A stretch of 64,000 nt of DNA from Mycoplasmatota bacterium (GTDB lineage Bacteria; Bacillota_I; Bacilli_A; Izemoplasmatales; Hujiaoplasmataceae), in assembly GCA_018622675.1 (NCBI GenBank), contig CP076020.1:1116001-1180000 (forward strand), written 5' to 3'. The notes beneath the pieces are model-generated. The model was not told where the DNA came from. It saw only the letters and a program-made list of their open reading frames with translations, and made no database searches. The first letter of the stretch is position 1, and the number at the start of each line of letters is the position of its first letter. This document shows, piece by piece, positions 53,925-63,450 of this stretch. The translations under genes were made by a program, and so were the position numbers.

Positions 53925-55043
53925 ATGATTTACACATTAGAGTTAAAAAAGAATATCATTACAAAATACCAGAAAGGAGAAAGCGTATCCAACTTATCAA
54001 AATATTATAGTATTCCAAAGACATCTATCTATAACTGGATTGATAAGCAAAAAGACAAATCATTTCAAGAGTTATCTATTAGCAAAAGACAAATCTATGA
54101 TTATCAAAGAAAAATTGAAAAACTTGATAGAGAAAATAAAATCCAACAATACATTATATCAAATCTTGATATCGCTAAAAGAAATAAGATTGATTTGGTA
54201 TACTTACTGCAAGAAAAGCAATATCCAATCAAAGCAATTTGTAGAGTACTTAATTTAAACACTTCTACATTCTATCATGATAAAAATAGAAAACCTGCGG
54301 TATATCTCGTTGATGAAGAAGATGAACAATTTAAACCATTAATACAATCTATTTTTAAGGATTCAGATGGTAGATTTGGCGGCCGTAAAATTCGTATTCT
54401 ATTGAAAAAGGATAATTACATTATTAGTCACGCTCGTGTTGTGAGATTAATGAAGGAAATGAATCTTAAACCTAATCAACCTGATGAAAACTATAATAAC
54501 TATCATAAAAGAAAATACTCATATAAACCAAATATCATGTCTAAATCCGAGTACTATCCAGAAGTCAATAAAATATGGGTTAGCGATATCACTTACATTC
54601 GTGTAAGGAAAGAACATTATTATTTAATTGTTATTATTGATTTATACTCAAGAAAAGTTATCGGTCATAGATTGGCTAAAACATTAGAAGCATCAGAGTT
54701 AATCGAATTGATGAAAAAGACATATAAATCTAGAAGCAAACCAAAGGAATTAATATTTCATAGCGATCAAGGTCAACAATATACTGCCAAATCATTCAAG
54801 AAATTACTCAAAGAAAACAAAATTACACAATCCTTTTCAAAAAAAGGTTGTCCATATGATAACTCTGTAGTTGAGAGTTTCTTTGCAAGTTTAAAAAAAG
54901 AAGAAATTTATCGTCACATCTATAATAGCTTTAAAGAATTAGAAAAAGCTATTGACGAATACATCATCTTTTTTAACACACAACGTCCACATGCATCTCT
55001 TAAATATAATACGCCTGGAGAATATGAAAAAATCTCTAAATAA
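53925..55043 (+). CDS. IS3 family transposase in one continuous frame
   Basis: The protein has 372 residues. An N-terminal OrfA-like part has a helix-turn-helix (KYQKGESVSNLSKYYSIPKTSIYNW) and a coiled coil (about 50-85). The OrfB-like part has the HTH_21 region and the rve catalytic domain with D in WVSDITYI, D in HSDQGQQY and E in VESFFASLKKEE. IS3 elements normally make this protein by frameshifting between two genes; here no shift is needed. Ends of the element are not clear; the right side is occupied by the second ISL3 copy. Confidence 0.93.
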   Translation: MIYTLELKKNIITKYQKGESVSNLSKYYSIPKTSIYNWIDKQKDKSFQELSISKRQIYDYQRKIEKLDRENKIQQYIISNLDIAKRNKIDLVYLLQEKQYPIKAICRVLNLNTSTFYHDKNRKPAVYLVDEEDEQFKPLIQSIFKDSDGRFGGRKIRILLKKDNYIISHARVVRLMKEMNLKPNQPDENYNNYHKRKYSYKPNIMSKSEYYPEVNKIWVSDITYIRVRKEHYYLIVIIDLYSRKVIGHRLAKTLEASELIELMKKTYKSRSKPKELIFHSDQGQQYTAKSFKKLLKENKITQSFSKKGCPYDNSVVESFFASLKKEEIYRHIYNSFKELEKAIDEYIIFFNTQRPHASLKYNTPGEYEKISK

Positions 55044-55056
55044 AGCCAAAAAAAAG

Positions 55057-55080
55057 ACCATCATTGCTGATGGTTTTTTT
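55057..55080 (+). terminator. Terminator after the IS3 transposase
   Basis: Stem ACCATCA / TGATGGT, TTGC loop, T tract up to 55080. The second ISL3 copy is inserted against it. Confidence 0.88.
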
Positions 55081-55085
55081 ATTAA
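55078..55085. repeat. Target-site duplication, left copy (ISL3 copy 2)
   Basis: TTTATTAA, identical to 56562-56569. Confidence 0.9.
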
Positions 55086-56561
55086 GGTTCTATAATTTTC
55101 TTAGGGGTGTTAATAAAAAGATGTTTATAAATTAAAAGTGCATGAATAGGAATCATCCTTTATAATTAAGTTACCTACAACCAATCGAAAGGGGTCCTAT
55201 TCATGCATGAACATTATATCAGTAAATTATTTAATTTGAAAGATGAAGATATTATTATTAAAGATATTTCTATAGAAAGAGGGACTAAGTATATTAAATT
55301 AGAACTTCCTATTAGAGAACATGTCTGTCCTCACTGTGGTTGTTTAACCAAGAGGGTTCATGATTACAGGATAAGAAAGATAAAACATCAATTTGATTTA
55401 GGATATAAAGTGATACTTCTATATAGGCGGCGAAGATATTTATGTAAAGATTGTCATAAACGTTTTCCTGAAGAGAATCAATTTGTAAGAAAATATCATA
55501 AGATAAGTAATTATACGAAACAACTAATTATCAAAGAATATGGATTTAAACAATCAATCACAGATGTTGGTAGACATTTAAATATATCATTTCACACAGT
55601 TATGAGACACATTAAAACTCATATTAGACCTAGGAGGCAAGTTTTACCTGAAGTCTTGAGTATAGATGAGTTTAAAAATTTATCTCATGGCTATGGTAAA
55701 TATGCTTTTCTTATGACTGATCCAGTCAATAAAAAACTGATTGACGTTTTCCCTAACAGAAGAAAACATAACCTAGAGTATTACTTCTCCCATATTGACA
55801 AAAAAGAGCGAGATAAGGTCAAATGCATCATATCAGACTTATGGGATCCTTATAGACAACTGGTTCACAAATACTTTCCTAAGGCCAAATTAATCGCTGA
55901 TAAGTATCATTTTATTAGACAGATGTATTGGGCCGTTCAAGATGTTAGATTAAGGGTTATGAAGAAATATCGAAAAGGTACTTATGAATATCATTATTTA
56001 AAGAAATATTGGAAACATATATTGGCTTATACTTATAATCTTTCAACCAAGCATTTTAAAGATTATAAGCTTGGTTATCACATTACAGCGAGAGAGATTA
56101 TTGATAAAGTAAGACACTTTGATCTAGATATGAAAAAGGCGATTGATTTAAAGGATTCCTTCTATGAAATGATGCATAGCACATCTTATTATGAAGCTAG
56201 AGATGTAATAAATCAATTTATAGATGACTTATATCAAACAAAGTTACCTGAATTCAAAACAGTCGCTAGGACTTATAAAAACTGGAAAGAAGAAATTATT
56301 AATTCATTTATTACCTATGACAAAAAACAATTAACCAATGGCTTTATTGAAGGTTTGAACAATAAAATCAAAGTGATTAAACGCATAGCCTTTGGCTATA
56401 GAAACTTTGATCACTTTAGATTAAGAATATTTGCATTAACTCATAATGATTGCCCTATTACTTCACTTTAAAACAAAAAGAAAAAGACGATACTTCAAAC
56501 GAAATATCATCTTTAAATTCTTTTCTTAAACATCAAAGACCCCTATCCTTGACATTCAACC
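55086..56561 (+). mobile_element. ISL3-family insertion sequence, copy 2 (1476 bp)
   Basis: Same ends and length as copy 1 at 36446-37921, in the same orientation 18640 bases downstream. The only differences I found are two bases in the leader (AA here, TC in copy 1). Its own 8-bp duplication shows an independent insertion. Confidence 0.95.
55203..56471 (+). CDS. ISL3 family transposase (copy 2)
   Basis: A 422-residue protein identical to that of copy 1, with the same zinc-binding cysteines and DDE residues. Identity implies recent transposition or gene conversion. Confidence 0.96.
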   Translation: MHEHYISKLFNLKDEDIIIKDISIERGTKYIKLELPIREHVCPHCGCLTKRVHDYRIRKIKHQFDLGYKVILLYRRRRYLCKDCHKRFPEENQFVRKYHKISNYTKQLIIKEYGFKQSITDVGRHLNISFHTVMRHIKTHIRPRRQVLPEVLSIDEFKNLSHGYGKYAFLMTDPVNKKLIDVFPNRRKHNLEYYFSHIDKKERDKVKCIISDLWDPYRQLVHKYFPKAKLIADKYHFIRQMYWAVQDVRLRVMKKYRKGTYEYHYLKKYWKHILAYTYNLSTKHFKDYKLGYHITAREIIDKVRHFDLDMKKAIDLKDSFYEMMHSTSYYEARDVINQFIDDLYQTKLPEFKTVARTYKNWKEEIINSFITYDKKQLTNGFIEGLNNKIKVIKRIAFGYRNFDHFRLRIFALTHNDCPITSL

Positions 56562-56793: not shown

Positions 56794-57684
56794 TTAATCT
56801 TTGGAAAAGCAATCAGTATGTTCTTGTTCGAAATCAATTTCAATAGTAACATGCTCAAAATCTTGCTTCTTCGTAATCATATGAGCTTCACGTTTTATTC
56901 TGTTAATATCTTTCAAATCAGAAGATGACTTAATGATAAGGTGTGTTGTTAAAACGTGATGTTCACTATCTAAAGACCAAACATGAGTGTGTTGAACATC
57001 TTGTACATTTTTAATGTCTTTGAACATCTCATCAAGTTTATTAATGTTGATATCTTCTGGTACAGCTTGTAAAAAAAGTAAAATCGTTTTTCTAAAGTTA
57101 ATAAAGACATTATATAAAATGTATACCGTGAATACAATAGCGAGAATAGGGTCCAATATATGGATATCTTTGACAAACATTATCAGTCCAACAATAAGTA
57201 CACCAATCCATCCAAGAACATCTTCGAGCAAGTGCCAACTTATTACTTTTTCATTTAACGTTTTTCCTTTTTTAGTTTTCAATACTGCAAAACCATTTAC
57301 CATAATCCCAATGATAGCAAACCCTATCATTCCCTTTGCATTCGCATGTACAGGATCAAGTAATCTAGGAACAGCATTCCATAAGACAATAAAAGAGCCA
57401 ACAATCAAAACAATTGTATTAATCAATGCAGCTAAAAGAGAATATCTTTTATAACCATAAGTGAATTGCTCATTATGATCTTTTTGAGATAATTTACCAA
57501 ATACCCATGCTAACCCCAAAGATATGCTGTCGCCTAAATCATGAAGGGCATCTGATAAGATTGCCATACTATTAAATAATATACCACCAATCAATTCAAG
57601 TACTGTGAAAAAGAAATTTAACAAAAAGGCAACTTTGATATTAGAAACACTATGATTGTGACTATGCGATGATTTCTCTTTCAT
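56794..57684 (-). CDS. Cation diffusion facilitator (Zn/Cd-type exporter)
   Basis: The protein has 296 residues with six helices and a histidine-rich N terminus (HSHNHS). CDF metal-site motifs are SDALHDLGDS in TM2 and SWHLLEDVLGW in TM5 (HxxxD pairs). The cytoplasmic C-terminal domain is about 205-296, with further histidines (HTHVW, EHHVLTTHL). It exports Zn2+ or similar ions in exchange for protons. GAGGG precedes the ATG. It stands apart from the ATPase operon but reads the same way. Confidence 0.93.
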   Translation of the reverse strand: MKEKSSHSHNHSVSNIKVAFLLNFFFTVLELIGGILFNSMAILSDALHDLGDSISLGLAWVFGKLSQKDHNEQFTYGYKRYSLLAALINTIVLIVGSFIVLWNAVPRLLDPVHANAKGMIGFAIIGIMVNGFAVLKTKKGKTLNEKVISWHLLEDVLGWIGVLIVGLIMFVKDIHILDPILAIVFTVYILYNVFINFRKTILLFLQAVPEDININKLDEMFKDIKNVQDVQHTHVWSLDSEHHVLTTHLIIKSSSDLKDINRIKREAHMITKKQDFEHVTIEIDFEQEHTDCFSKD

Positions 57685-57902
57685 AAACTAACCCTCTCTA
57701 TTCTTTTGGCATCTCATTATTGCATTATGAGACGTCTTAATTTTATAAATTAATTAATATGTTATTTGTCTAAAATAATTTCATATCTTTGTTGCATACA
57801 CAAATGCATCATCATACGTATCCTAATTTTATCACAGTCAGCATTATCCCTCAATCAAAAGATTGAAAGTATCCAAATAATTTAGCGGTTTTATAAAAAA
57901 AA

Positions 57903-57936
57903 TTGGAATGGATGTCAGACCTAACAACCATTCCAA
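57903..57936 (-). terminator. Terminator of the ATPase-thioredoxin operon
   Basis: A 9-bp perfect stem (TTGGAATGG / CCATTCCAA) with a 16-base loop, followed by eight Ts on the minus strand. The rest of 57685-57995 holds no gene. Confidence 0.8.
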
Positions 57937-57995
57937 AAAAATTACAATAATATTAAACTTGACAAGTTTTTTGAGAAGAGCGGTCACACTAGAAT

Positions 57996-58454
57996 CTATT
58001 CATATGCAATATTTCCAATAGAAACTGCTTCATAAAAGTTCGTTATTTCAGTTGTCCCAACGAAATAATCTACCAAACTATTGTTTTTATATATTAGCAG
58101 CGTTGGTGTAGAATTTAAACTATTACCATTCAAATTAATATCACTCCGGTTACCTGTAGTTCTTTGAGCATCCATCATGAATAAATCAATTTGCAAGTTA
58201 TTATTTGTTCCAAATTGAAAAGTTTCTTCTTTAATAGATATACATGCTCCACAAGTCTCACTATAAAAGTATACTCCATATAATTCATTTTCTTGTCTGC
58301 TAGCCTCTGAATATTCTATAATCCTTGTAAAATCTGAATAAGAGTCTTTTAATTCTGAATCATTGTTTACAATCACTAAGGTGAGTATTATCAACACAAA
58401 AACTCCTGCAAATCCAATTAATATGTTTCTTATAAAATGATCTTTTTTAGTCAT
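57996..58454 (-). CDS. Membrane-anchored thioredoxin-like protein
   Basis: The protein has 152 residues. A single N-terminal membrane helix (about 9-30, IRNILIGFAGVFVLIILTLVIV) is followed by an extracytoplasmic thioredoxin-fold domain with the CxxC motif CGAC (YFYSETCGACISI) and the cis-Pro region NSTPTLLIYKN. The GGAG for its ATG is inside the end of the ATPase gene, 6 bases away, so the two are coupled. It may handle thiols of metal-exposed surface proteins; that is inference. Confidence 0.82.
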   Translation of the reverse strand: MTKKDHFIRNILIGFAGVFVLIILTLVIVNNDSELKDSYSDFTRIIEYSEASRQENELYGVYFYSETCGACISIKEETFQFGTNNNLQIDLFMMDAQRTTGNRSDINLNGNSLNSTPTLLIYKNNSLVDYFVGTTEITNFYEAVSIGNIAYE

Positions 58455-58459
58455 ATTGT

Positions 58460-60793
58460 TTAAACTCCTTCACTCATAGCGCAACTCTTATGTTCTTGGG
58501 CTAATTTCAGGATTGACTTAATATGATTATCAGCAATTTTAAATTTTGTTACGCCATTTTCAGGAATCTTAACTACAATTTTTAAATCTAATAGTTTTTT
58601 TAATTTTTTCATTAAAAATCCTGAAGATTTTTTTAATGTTTCATTTAGTTCGCTTAAAGTGCATTCTTTTTGATAAAGTGTGTCTAACATACTTAGCATA
58701 GTTGCATCACTGAGTACATTGAATAATTGTTCTCTATATTTATTATCAACGTGAGCATTCTTACCAAATATAATACGTAGAGAATTCAAGACTGCAATTA
58801 ATGAGATACCTACATCAGCAAAGATAGCTGCTAACATTGAACTCATACCTAATGAAGCTAAACCAAGTACAATGAATTTTACCCCCAAGGTTAGAACAAT
58901 ATTTTGGATTACAATTCTGCGAGTTTTTGAAGCAATTGAAAATGATTTACTAAGTTTTGTTAAATCATTATCCATAATTATGATGTCTGCGACATCTATG
59001 GCTAACTCTGATCCTTCACCCATAGCTACACCGATATCAGCCTGTTTTAATAGAGGCGCATCGTTGATTCCATCGCCGACAAACATTTTATACCCATTAG
59101 AAGATATATTTTCAAATTTTGAAATCTTTTCTTGTGGTAGTAATGAACTGTAATATGACATTCCTCCAAGTTCATTGGACACACTTTTTGCTGTTGATTC
59201 ATTGTCACCTGTTAACATCGTAAAATTCAGATTTGAATGATTGTTAAAAAATAAGTAAGAACTATCTTTAATTTCGTCTTTGATGGTTAAATTTCCTATA
59301 TACTTATTGTTCTTTGCCACATATATAATTGTTCCTATTTCATTTGAACTGTCATAATCAATTTGGTTATCATCTAAAAGTTTATGGTTCCCAACTAATA
59401 CAATTTCACCATCAAGTGTTCCTTTTATCCCTTTTCCTGGTACCTCAATAATATCTGCCATTTTGTAGAGGTTATCTTCACTCTTTGCCAACACTGATTT
59501 TGCAATTGGATGAGTTGAATATTTTTCTAAAGAGGCTGCTAATTTCAACGTTTCTTCACTAGTGTATGAATCAACCGCAAAATTTCCTTTGGTGATTGTA
59601 CCAGTTTTATCTAGAGCAACTTGATCAACATGCAAGATCATATCTAAAAATGAACTACCTTTAAACAATATTCCTTCGCGAGCACTCGCTCCTATACCAG
59701 AAAAATATGATAGTGGAACACTCAAAACAAGTGCACATGGACAACTAATTACAAGAAATGTTGCAGCTCTATAAGCATAAATATACATGTTTTCTGGATA
59801 AATAATTGTTGGAATACTAAACATCAAAATAGCTAATATTGTAACTAATGGTGTATAATATTTTGAAAATTTAGTGATAAACTGTTCTGTTTTTGCTTTT
59901 TTGTTCGTTGAATTTTCTATCAGATCAATTATTTTTGCCACAGTGGAATCTTCATATTTTTTTTCTGCAGTGATTTCAACAACTCCTCCAACATTTATGT
60001 TTCCACTAAGTACTTTATCTCCAACTGATACAGAGGAAAGTTTTGATTCACCTGTTAATGCAGACGAATTCAAATCTGTATCACCCTTAGACACTATTCC
60101 ATCCACAGGAATTTTCTCTCCATTTTTCACTACAATAATATCTCCAACTTGTACTTCATTTGGATCTTTTAAAAGAATTTTATCTTGGTATTTCACGTTT
60201 GCATAATCTACTTTTAAATCCATCAGACCTTTAATTTCATTTTTAGAGGATTTTACCGCATAATTTTGTAAATATTCACCAAAACTATAAAATATTACCA
60301 CAAGCAATGCTTCTAAATACTCACCTAGTAACATTGCTGCAATCGTCGCAATTACCATTAATGTATTTTCATTGAAGAAATCTTTTCTTCGTAATCCTTT
60401 TATAGTTTTCACTATAATATTCTTCGCTACTAGAAAATAACTAATGTAAGTTCCAATAAGCAAATATATTCCACTTATTGGAAAAATATAGTTAATTAAG
60501 ACATAAAGTACCAACCCAATGAAAAAGGTACTGTAATATCTGTGTTTCTTGTTCTCACTGGGACCTTCGTGTGGTAAATATGTATCTACACCAGTTTCGA
60601 TTGAATTAACAATTTTTCTTATTTCTATTACTTCTTTATTTTCAACAAAGTCATCCTTTGTTTCTAATAGCATAATTTGATTTGTAAAATTGAATGTTGC
60701 GTTATGAATATTTTCTCTTTTCATTAATGCATCTTCAATTTTACCCGCGCATCCACTACAAGTTAGGTTCTCCATTTTGATTTTCTTTATCAT
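58460..60793 (-). CDS. P1B-type Zn/Cd/Pb ATPase with C-terminal ArsR-like winged helix
   Basis: The protein has 777 residues. The N-terminal HMA domain has C12 and C15 (TCSGCAG). Then come the actuator loop LTGES (about 247-251), the CPC motif (351-353), the phosphorylation site DKTGT (395-399), TGDNESTAKS and GDGINDAPLLK. Lys in LGVKFIVLG and Asp in FADVGISLIAVLNSLR are those of the P1B-2 Zn/Cd/Pb group. After the last helix, residues about 690-777 form a winged-helix domain (LSDATMLSMLDTL, SELNETLKKSSGFLMKKLKKLLDL) like ArsR/SmtB repressors. AGGAGG precedes the ATG. It is first in the operon, divergent from the two-component genes. Confidence 0.92.
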   Translation of the reverse strand: MIKKIKMENLTCSGCAGKIEDALMKRENIHNATFNFTNQIMLLETKDDFVENKEVIEIRKIVNSIETGVDTYLPHEGPSENKKHRYYSTFFIGLVLYVLINYIFPISGIYLLIGTYISYFLVAKNIIVKTIKGLRRKDFFNENTLMVIATIAAMLLGEYLEALLVVIFYSFGEYLQNYAVKSSKNEIKGLMDLKVDYANVKYQDKILLKDPNEVQVGDIIVVKNGEKIPVDGIVSKGDTDLNSSALTGESKLSSVSVGDKVLSGNINVGGVVEITAEKKYEDSTVAKIIDLIENSTNKKAKTEQFITKFSKYYTPLVTILAILMFSIPTIIYPENMYIYAYRAATFLVISCPCALVLSVPLSYFSGIGASAREGILFKGSSFLDMILHVDQVALDKTGTITKGNFAVDSYTSEETLKLAASLEKYSTHPIAKSVLAKSEDNLYKMADIIEVPGKGIKGTLDGEIVLVGNHKLLDDNQIDYDSSNEIGTIIYVAKNNKYIGNLTIKDEIKDSSYLFFNNHSNLNFTMLTGDNESTAKSVSNELGGMSYYSSLLPQEKISKFENISSNGYKMFVGDGINDAPLLKQADIGVAMGEGSELAIDVADIIIMDNDLTKLSKSFSIASKTRRIVIQNIVLTLGVKFIVLGLASLGMSSMLAAIFADVGISLIAVLNSLRIIFGKNAHVDNKYREQLFNVLSDATMLSMLDTLYQKECTLSELNETLKKSSGFLMKKLKKLLDLKIVVKIPENGVTKFKIADNHIKSILKLAQEHKSCAMSEGV

Positions 60794-60916
60794 TTTTTTT
60801 ATCCTCCTATGATGAATTAAGTTTTTATGATAATATGTATATGAACTTTAAGTCACATGTATTATATTTTTCAAATGTGTGTCAAATATGTGTAAAACAT
60901 ATATTAGGAGGAAATG

Positions 60917-61597
60917 ATGAATATATTAGTTGTTGAAGACAATCTTGAAATTAACAAAATAATTACAAAAATGCTTCAATCAGAAGGGTACAATGTCACC
61001 TCTTGCACAAATGCTTTTGATGCATTGAAATCTTTTTCTAAAAACGATTACTTTTGTGTTATCACTGATTTGATGATGCCTATTATGTCTGGAGAAGAGT
61101 TGATTGAAAAACTACGACCAAATTATCTTGGCTTAATCATTGCAGTGACCGCAAAAACAGGAATTGATGATAAACTATATACACTATCAATAGGTGCAGA
61201 CGATTATATTATTAAGCCATTTAATAGAAATGAAATTTTATTCAAAATCAAAAATTACTACAATAAATTTATACAAACAAGGAAAAATATATCATTTAAT
61301 AATGGAGAACTTATTTTCAACTTTAATGATAACCAACTTATTGTTTGTAATAATATTGTAGAGCTTACTGCAATTGAATTTTTGATAGTAAAATTTTTTG
61401 TTCAAAATGTGAATCAAGTTCTCTCAAGGGATCAAATTATGAAAAACGTTTATTATGAAGACTTCAACGTTTTTGATCGAGCAATAGATGGTCATATCAA
61501 AAATATACGAAAAAAAATTGCTGATTTTGTATCAAAAAAATACATCCATACGGTTTACGGATTAGGTTATAAGTTTGTAGGTGAAATCGATGCATAG
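60917..61597 (+). CDS. OmpR-family response regulator
   Basis: The protein has 226 residues from ATG 60917 (AGGAGG 5 bases upstream; the ATG at 60914 is only 2 bases away). The receiver domain has acidic residues in VVEDN, phospho-acceptor D51 (VITDLMMP), Thr in AVTAKTG and Lys in IIKPF. The C-terminal winged helix (about 130-226) contains ELTAIEFLIVKFF, RDQIMKNVY and the RAIDGHIKNIRKKI recognition region. It overlaps the kinase gene by 8 bases and is divergent from the ATPase gene, which it may control. Confidence 0.93.
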   Translation: MNILVVEDNLEINKIITKMLQSEGYNVTSCTNAFDALKSFSKNDYFCVITDLMMPIMSGEELIEKLRPNYLGLIIAVTAKTGIDDKLYTLSIGADDYIIKPFNRNEILFKIKNYYNKFIQTRKNISFNNGELIFNFNDNQLIVCNNIVELTAIEFLIVKFFVQNVNQVLSRDQIMKNVYYEDFNVFDRAIDGHIKNIRKKIADFVSKKYIHTVYGLGYKFVGEIDA

Positions 61598-62825
61598 TTT
61601 ATTCTTGTTATCAAGAAAACGCATTCTGTTTCTATATTTTGCTATTTTTATTCTAGTAATCATTGGAGTAAATATCGGAACAAGAATTGTAAATAATTAT
61701 TACCGAGATGAAATAATCGAACAAGAAAATGTAGAGTTTATGGAAATGTTTTTTCATATGATGTCATATAGTGATGAGGAAACCGCAATTGAATCTGCTA
61801 TTCACTTTAGCCATATTAATAATACAACATATAGAATCTTAAAAAATGGTGACCTATTTATCGAGTCTACAACAACCCCCTCTGATTTCAAATCATACTA
61901 TAACTTAGTAAATGGAGATGAATATGTCTTTGAAATTGACAATAGCAATAATACCTCGACGATAATCAGGGAAAATGAAGTCTTTATTATTAATATCATT
62001 GTTTTTACAGCATTATCACTTGTCGCTTTATATTATATATATAGTCGCAGACAAAGAGAAGTGAGGACGGTTCATGACATAAAACTCATACAAAAGCTTT
62101 TAGAAAACCATGAAGAGTGCAATCATCAATTTAAGTTCCACGAGTTTCATCAAATATATCATGATGTTTTGCAAAACTTGAATACAATTGACCTACTTAT
62201 GGAAAAAAGAATTGATAATTTAAATGCCTTAATTCATGATCTCAAAACTCCTTTAACCATATTAAAACACCATCTTCAAGAAGATGAAAATATTACTAAA
62301 AATAAGCAAGCAATAATAAGTTCATTGAATGATTTAACAACGATAGCCTCAGATTTAATTGCTGAGAAATTTCATGGCGTACACATTAAAATCAATGCCT
62401 CTAAACTTATATCCAATGAAATTGAAAAGTATATCCAAACTTTTCGAACGAAAAACATCAAACTTGATATTGATATCGCTTTAAACTTATATATAAAATT
62501 TAATAAAAGAGACTTAATTAGAGTCCTTCAAAATATTTTAACAAATGCCTATTACTATTCTTATGATGATTCAGTTGTTACAATTTCATTACAAAAACAA
62601 GAAAATTATGTTAAGCTTCTAATAACCAATATTGGAGACAAAATGGATAAAATGCAAATTGCTAACATCTTTAATAAAGATACTAGCACTAGGCAAGATA
62701 AACAAAAAAATGGTCTTGGCTTGCATGTAACCAAGTTACTTTTAGAAGATGCAAATGCAAATATTACAGTTTCAAGTGATGATTCCGGAAATCACTTCCA
62801 TATTAATTTCCCTTCTCTTGATTAA
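61590..62825 (+). CDS. Sensor histidine kinase
   Basis: The protein has 411 residues from ATG 61590, inside the end of the response regulator (ATGCATAG). TM1 is about 11-30 and TM2 about 131-151, with a sensor loop of some 100 residues outside. The phospho-acceptor is H216 (LNALIHDLKTPLTILKHHL). N box NILTNAYYYS and G box NGLGLHVTKLLLED complete the ATPase domain. It senses an unknown signal; metal stress is inferred from the neighbouring ATPase. Confidence 0.92.
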   Translation: MHSLFLLSRKRILFLYFAIFILVIIGVNIGTRIVNNYYRDEIIEQENVEFMEMFFHMMSYSDEETAIESAIHFSHINNTTYRILKNGDLFIESTTTPSDFKSYYNLVNGDEYVFEIDNSNNTSTIIRENEVFIINIIVFTALSLVALYYIYSRRQREVRTVHDIKLIQKLLENHEECNHQFKFHEFHQIYHDVLQNLNTIDLLMEKRIDNLNALIHDLKTPLTILKHHLQEDENITKNKQAIISSLNDLTTIASDLIAEKFHGVHIKINASKLISNEIEKYIQTFRTKNIKLDIDIALNLYIKFNKRDLIRVLQNILTNAYYYSYDDSVVTISLQKQENYVKLLITNIGDKMDKMQIANIFNKDTSTRQDKQKNGLGLHVTKLLLEDANANITVSSDDSGNHFHINFPSLD

Positions 62826-62850
62826 ATTACATAAAATTTTGAAACATTTC

Positions 62851-63450
62851 ACAATAAATACATCAAACAAACACAAAAAAGTATGTGAAAATGATACAAT
62901 CTTTGCGGATACATTTGATACCATTTTACTAAAACACATTAACCATATTATTAAGGATAATAACAAGTTTATAAATACCCTTTCTAAGGCACTTACTGAA
63001 CATCCATCAATCATTGAACTAACTTTAAACTTGAATGCGACACAAGCAAAAATAAAGGCCATTGACTCAAAACTTGGAACACTAATCACATCAGATAGTG
63101 AACTAGATAAACTCGTGAAAAATGAACTTATCAAATCTAAAAATGGATTGCAATCAGAATATATAACATACAAGAATAAGATATTAACATCCCACAATAT
63201 TTCTAACATTATTCGAACAGTTAAATTGCTTTTAAAACCTTATGATGAACCAATAAAGTCCATAAACGATTTTCCATTTAATGAACTATTTACAAAAGTC
63301 ATCGTTCATAGTAGACACGAGATTGAGTTTGTTATTGATATATTTAATTCTGGATCAAGTGAACCTATGTATGCTTTTAGAAGAATGTCGACCCCGTTCA
63401 TGATTAGAAAAACAGAACATGTCACAAAAAGTCGAGTTGTGATTTATTAG
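62851..63450 (+). pseudogene. C-terminal remnant of a large serine recombinase
   Basis: About 200 codons without a catalytic domain. The sequence reads like the end of a serine integrase: a last zinc-ribbon-like Cys (HKKVCENDT), a long coiled-coil (LNLNATQAKIKAIDSKL to EYITYKNKIL), then FNELFTKVIVHSRHEIEFVID, the typical final strand block. The frame continues upstream into the kinase gene without meaning, so I place the start at about 62851 where homology begins. The N-terminal resolvase and DNA-binding parts are missing. Confidence 0.7.

Follow-up and report, generated by a model that had tools for sequence, protein, structure and literature searches.

A P1B-2 metal ATPase fused to an SmtB/ArsR-type winged helix that has lost its DNA-reading residues

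The window, a stretch of 64,000 nucleotides from a Mycoplasmatota bacterium (contig CP076020.1), contains a gene in which a P1B-2 ATPase continues without interruption into a winged-helix domain of the SmtB/ArsR type. The fused gene lies in a cassette of metal-transport and regulatory genes, the features of which are as follows.

56794-57684, minus strand: cation diffusion facilitator, a Zn-type efflux carrier (Pfam Cation_efflux)
57996-58454, minus strand: membrane-anchored thioredoxin-like protein with a CGAC motif, in the same operon, 5 nt past the pump gene (Pfam Thioredoxin)
58460-60793, minus strand: fused gene of 777 codons, P1B-2 ATPase with C-terminal SmtB/ArsR winged helix (translation)
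58769-60793, minus strand: ATPase part, residues 1-675, with HMA domain (5-66), CPC, DKTGT and GDGIND (Pfam, NCBIfam)
58463-58768, minus strand: predicted winged-helix domain, residues 676-777 (AlphaFold2, domain and full length; Foldseek)
58586-58624, minus strand: alpha4, residues 724-736, the former recognition helix, with S-G-F-L-M-K-K in place of Q-S-x-x-S-H-Q (alignment counts)
58481-58531, minus strand: alpha5 zinc-site pattern D755-x-H757-x10-H768-x2-C771 (alignment)
60839-60858, minus strand: candidate ArsR-type operator, a 6-8-6 palindrome ATGTGA-N8-TCATAT (motif search)
60871-60892, plus strand: two 11-bp direct repeats, TCAAATGTGTG and TCAAATATGTG, candidate response-regulator boxes (read from sequence)
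60914-61597, plus strand: divergent OmpR-type response regulator (Pfam Response_reg and Trans_reg_C)
61581-62825, plus strand: sensor histidine kinase (Pfam HATPase_c)

Residues 1-675 of the fused protein comprise HMA, E1-E2 ATPase and hydrolase domains (Pfam) and carry the marks of P1B-2 ATPases, namely the P-type core motifs DKTGT and GDGIND and a CPC motif in a transport helix. The protein scores 487.8 bits against a cut-off of 313.5 with TIGR01512, the NCBIfam model of cadmium-family P1B ATPases, and is likewise above the curated cut-off of TIGR01525. Both the motifs and the TIGR01512 score bear out the full Zn/Cd/Pb ATPase that an earlier note had read at this locus, and the pump would export Zn/Cd/Pb, judging from its family and from the adjoining cation diffusion facilitator. 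The HMA domain, the three motifs and the transport helices are common to ZntA/CadA-type P1B-2 Zn/Cd/Pb ATPases; however, the known members of this group end soon after the last transmembrane helix, whereas in the window pump this helix is followed by 102 residues of winged helix.

The match of this tail to the ArsR family is weak at the level of sequence. The window tail is below threshold with HTH_metalloreg (E = 8e-7; 28.7 bits against a cut-off of 55) and with Pfam HTH_5 (16.1 against 22 bits), and its matches among PDB sequences are SmtB (E = 0.0045) and CzrA (E = 0.03-0.06); the homologous tail in G039 exceeds the HTH_5 cut-off (30.5 against 22 bits). The structural match is unambiguous. 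The AlphaFold2 model of the tail, built with 28 related sequences as input, has a mean pLDDT of 88.7 and the element order helix-helix-helix-helix-strand-strand-helix, which is the alpha1-alpha2-alpha3-alpha4-beta-wing-beta-alpha5 order of the SmtB/ArsR fold, and the best solved structures found by Foldseek are SmtB (1smt, E = 3.4e-6) and CzrA (TM about 0.80), alpha5 zinc-sensing repressors of the ArsR family. The predicted structure thus rules out a chance likeness to a winged helix and agrees with the fold proposed in the earlier note, in which the tail had been taken to be about 88 residues long instead of the about 102 (676-777) modelled here. The tail differs from SmtB and CzrA in being covalently joined to a pump and the membrane and in the loss of recognition-helix and wing residues. 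In the full-length AlphaFold2 model, the last transmembrane helix (653-676) is separated from the start of alpha1 at 678 by about two residues; because the pLDDT of the linker (678-687) is below 50, contacts between the tail and the ATPase domains cannot be read from this model.

The same uninterrupted fused frame occurs in independent assemblies of two other genomes, G023 and G088 (loci L087 and L083), where the cassette has more than 98% protein identity to that of the window. Diverged homologues in G041 (L051, 55%) and G039 (L049, about 53%), with about 52-55% identity overall, are fused as well. A missed stop, a sequencing error or a frameshift near codon 680 is therefore excluded, and the single 777-residue frame noted previously stands. 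Fused frames were found, among the matches listed from roughly 600 genomes, only in the window genome (G000) and in these four, all of which belong to one order. The partly overlapping surveys covered 90 genomes of the order, 395 of the class, 392 of the phylum and 48 of other phyla, and no fusion appeared elsewhere among the matches listed for the class sample, the phylum sample and the 48 named genomes of other phyla. In another scan, of named genomes, the listed matches represent the ATPase part, with no fusion among them and none extending past residue 136 of the 205-residue query, and the pumps listed in a plasmid search align only up to about residue 699. Since the surveys seek C-terminal fusions like that of the window and list the best matches, distant independent fusions could be missed. 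One row of the search alignment was a self-written generic ArsR-like consensus, which served as a search aid only. A further candidate fusion, in G097, was rejected because the match runs through a genuine TAA between two genes. A description of an ATPase-ArsR fusion was not found in the open-access literature, and an Rfam search of the window gave no match. G041 also contains a near-identical fused copy (L050, 8061-10541), which an IS3-like element has truncated near residue 380, leaving the C-terminal half; this truncated copy adjoins an intact thioredoxin-like gene and carrier.

The unfused state is preserved in the sister family f3, in which the pump gene is directly followed by a stand-alone arsR that overlaps the pump stop or begins a few bases past it, within a tyrS-arsR-pump-pepV neighbourhood kept in most loci. 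In G039, G088, G076 and G077, pump and arsR even share one frame with a stop codon between them, the frame being deduced from read-through matches with one TAA. Because the two genes adjoin, sometimes with only a stop between them in one frame, loss of this stop is very likely to have produced the fusion, for which a single such loss would suffice. The f3 locus and the cadC-cadA and ziaR-ziaA pairs are tandem operons with the same two components as the fusion; they encode two proteins, one of which is a functional-looking repressor, whereas the window encodes one protein without DNA-reading residues. When closer outgroups are used, the tree places the fusions outside the clade of stand-alone f3 proteins (100/99), which indicates that the fusion is old. 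A single origin is possible, with the fusions forming one group in only 26% of bootstrap trees. The tree alone would also accommodate fission, the reverse event in which stand-alone repressors split off from a fusion, but such repressors would have to regain a shared recognition helix.

The family of the window genome, f1, has a native pump without arsR (L002, L024-L036). These native loci are also without an ArsR-type operator, and many keep the tyrS/pepV neighbourhood. The fused copy of the window is an acquired paralogue, because the native f1 pump has no arsR and the fused copy is near-identical across f1 and f3 and flanked by mobile elements. The whole cassette (56794-62825: kinase, regulator, fused pump, thioredoxin-like protein and carrier) is near-identical in genomes of two families (L083, L087, L050). 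Insertion sequences and a recombinase-like remnant (62749-63450) border it, and it has thus moved between the families recently. Next to the cassette, at 53925-56471, transposase genes of two kinds (IS3-like and ISL3) lie in tandem. A relative of the thioredoxin-like protein adjoins the diverged fused pump of G041.

The fused domains were compared with 23 stand-alone ArsRs, in all of which (23/23) Q724, S725, S728, H729 and Q730 of the recognition helix are invariant. None of these five residues is kept in the window (S, G, M, K and K instead) or in the G039 fusion (T, V, Y, R and H), and one of the five is kept in the G041 fusion (T, S, E, N, R), so that the replacements differ from fusion to fusion. 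The Q-S-x-x-S-H-x-L recognition helix conserved in SmtB/ArsR repressors is hence absent from the window tail, and the fused domains have also lost Arg/Lys residues from helices 2 and 4 and from the wing. By contrast, all four ligand positions of the alpha5 zinc site are kept in the window as D755, H757, H768 and C771, the last of which corresponds to Glu in SmtB and His in CzrA. These include candidate metal-binding Cys and His residues of the kind sought in the tail, and their pattern, D-x-H-x10-H-x2-[E/H/C], has the spacing of SmtB D104, H106, H117 and E120, which sit between two subunits (PMC1665450). The contrast between four of four metal positions and none of five DNA positions gives p = 0.008, for sets of positions defined by known family function but picked after the alignment had been seen. 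The G039 fusion has D, C, H and E at the zinc-site positions, whereas the G041 fusion keeps Asp alone; not all fusions therefore have the zinc site, which counts against a general zinc-sensing role of the tail.

The pump promoter retains a palindrome of the type that stand-alone ArsRs of this kind may recognize. The palindrome at 60839-60858 is the sole match in the window, across which 0.10 would be expected, and its TGA-N8-TCA spacing is that of 12-2-12 SmtB/ArsR operators (PMC8790569), which makes it a candidate operator. In a survey upstream of pump genes that accepted small variants of the motif, ATRTGA-N8-TCATAT-type palindromes precede 15 of 16 arsR-linked pump genes of f3 and none of seven arsR-less f1 loci (p = 3e-5), and an ArsR-type operator is present in every fusion promoter read. 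Between palindrome and response-regulator gene, the window promoter has 11-bp spaced AAATGTGT-type repeats, which recur in both L051 promoters. A repeat spacing of 11 bp is typical for OmpR-type regulators. The divergent response regulator and kinase also occur at L051 and L049. Four fusion loci have intact flanks, and each of them adjoins two-component genes; no such genes lie next to any stand-alone locus that was read. This neighbouring system is likely to be the replacement regulator of the pump; neither it nor the tandem-gene ancestor had been considered in the earlier note. The donor family f3 has three genomes with a fusion (G039, G041 and G088), each of which also encodes a stand-alone ArsR, and no stand-alone SmtB-type ArsR of this family was found in G000 or G023. 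In G023, the place of the response regulator, upstream of the fused pump, is taken by a transposase-like gene (L087, 5545-6111), and the contig ends there; two-component control of this pump may thus be lost.

Since the domain has kept both its fold and its zinc-site ligands, the best fit is the metal-domain part of an option raised in the earlier note, that the regulator became an autoinhibitory metal domain. We give about an even chance to the view, drawn from sequence comparison, that the former repressor now serves the pump as a regulatory domain in the cytosol, responding to metal or mediating dimerisation. Such a domain would no longer repress transcription and would sit on the cytosolic face beside the membrane exit helix, binding Zn(II) at its inter-subunit alpha5 site and thereby coupling cytosolic zinc to pump activity or dimerisation. 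An alpha5 site takes two subunits to form, which tells against this view unless the pump dimerises, as we infer that it does. Pump transcription would be run by the divergent two-component system via the 11-bp repeats and, in genomes with a stand-alone ArsR, this repressor would also act in trans at the retained operator.

The main rival, which is rather unlikely, holds that after loss of the stop the pump works with or without its tail and that the winged helix is a passenger eroding under two-component control. The tail has diverged fast: fusion lineages share 23-24% identity in it, compared with 45-72% for stand-alone ArsRs, and the ATPase parts of the three fusion lineages are about 52-59% identical. 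Between G000 and G088 there are 20 synonymous and 4 nonsynonymous changes in the ATPase part and 3 of each in the winged helix; this raised nonsynonymous share, a contrast of p = 0.12 on small numbers, points to a weaker constraint on the winged helix than on the ATPase without proving it. Erosion would also suit the zinc site mostly lost in G041 and the sub-threshold family scores of the window tail. Despite this deep divergence, however, the tail is open and foldable, with high confidence in the predicted fold, in three deeply separated lineages, whereas a neutral 100-codon stretch of this base composition would stay open with a probability of about 0.0004 in each, and in the window all four metal ligands are kept against 16 of 37 conserved positions overall.

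It is improbable that the domain is a membrane-tethered autoregulator that binds the operator of its own promoter in the manner of ToxR/CadC, a DNA-binding sensor having been another option of the earlier note. The retention of the operator in every fusion promoter would favour such binding, as would the lack of another SmtB-type repressor of this family in the window genome, but the recognition residues are lost and differ between fusions while the operator stays the same, which makes tethered DNA binding unlikely. The stand-alone ArsR accounts for operator retention in G039, G041 and G088, the cassettes of G000 and G023 are recent near-identical arrivals, and a spacer of about two residues from membrane helix to alpha1 gives the domain little reach. 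ToxR/CadC-type membrane-bound one-component regulators use an N-terminal OmpR-type domain; the window pump has a winged helix and a membrane part and has lost the DNA-reading residues. A protein-protein module, the remaining option of the earlier note, is a possible role. Little credence can be given to a decoy or docking module, in which the domain would pair with the stand-alone ArsR or some other partner and keep it at the membrane, so that the amount of pump would set the degree of repression. The kept fold and dimer-interface alpha5 pattern and the stand-alone ArsR of all three donor-family genomes would speak for such a module, but the recipients G000 and G023 are without such an ArsR.

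Building on the conversion to a metal-responsive domain of the pump, we tentatively suggest that a transcriptional metal repressor was incorporated into the pump it had controlled, so that a DNA-bound zinc switch became an allosteric zinc switch of a transporter while control at the DNA passed to a two-component system. Control of metal pumps of this type is thought to lie mainly in transcription and in their own metal-binding domains, and the suggested incorporation, if true, would mean that evolution turned transcriptional feedback directly into post-translational feedback. The repressor became part of the pump, with its DNA-reading surface lost and its metal-site pattern kept, and the unfused ancestral state survives in close relatives. 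Because both forms exist in close relatives, they make a natural before-and-after pair for how the repressor of a gene turns into a regulator of that gene's product. A winged helix also accompanies a metal transporter in the case of FeoC, a small partner of the GTP-dependent iron importer FeoB that is proposed to act on the transporter rather than on DNA; FeoC is not known to be an ArsR-family metal sensor.

In the diverged cluster of G041 there is an additional protein with a single HMA domain, and another promoter of this cluster likewise carries an operator-like palindrome and 11-bp repeats (L051, 9625-9885 and 6742-9060).
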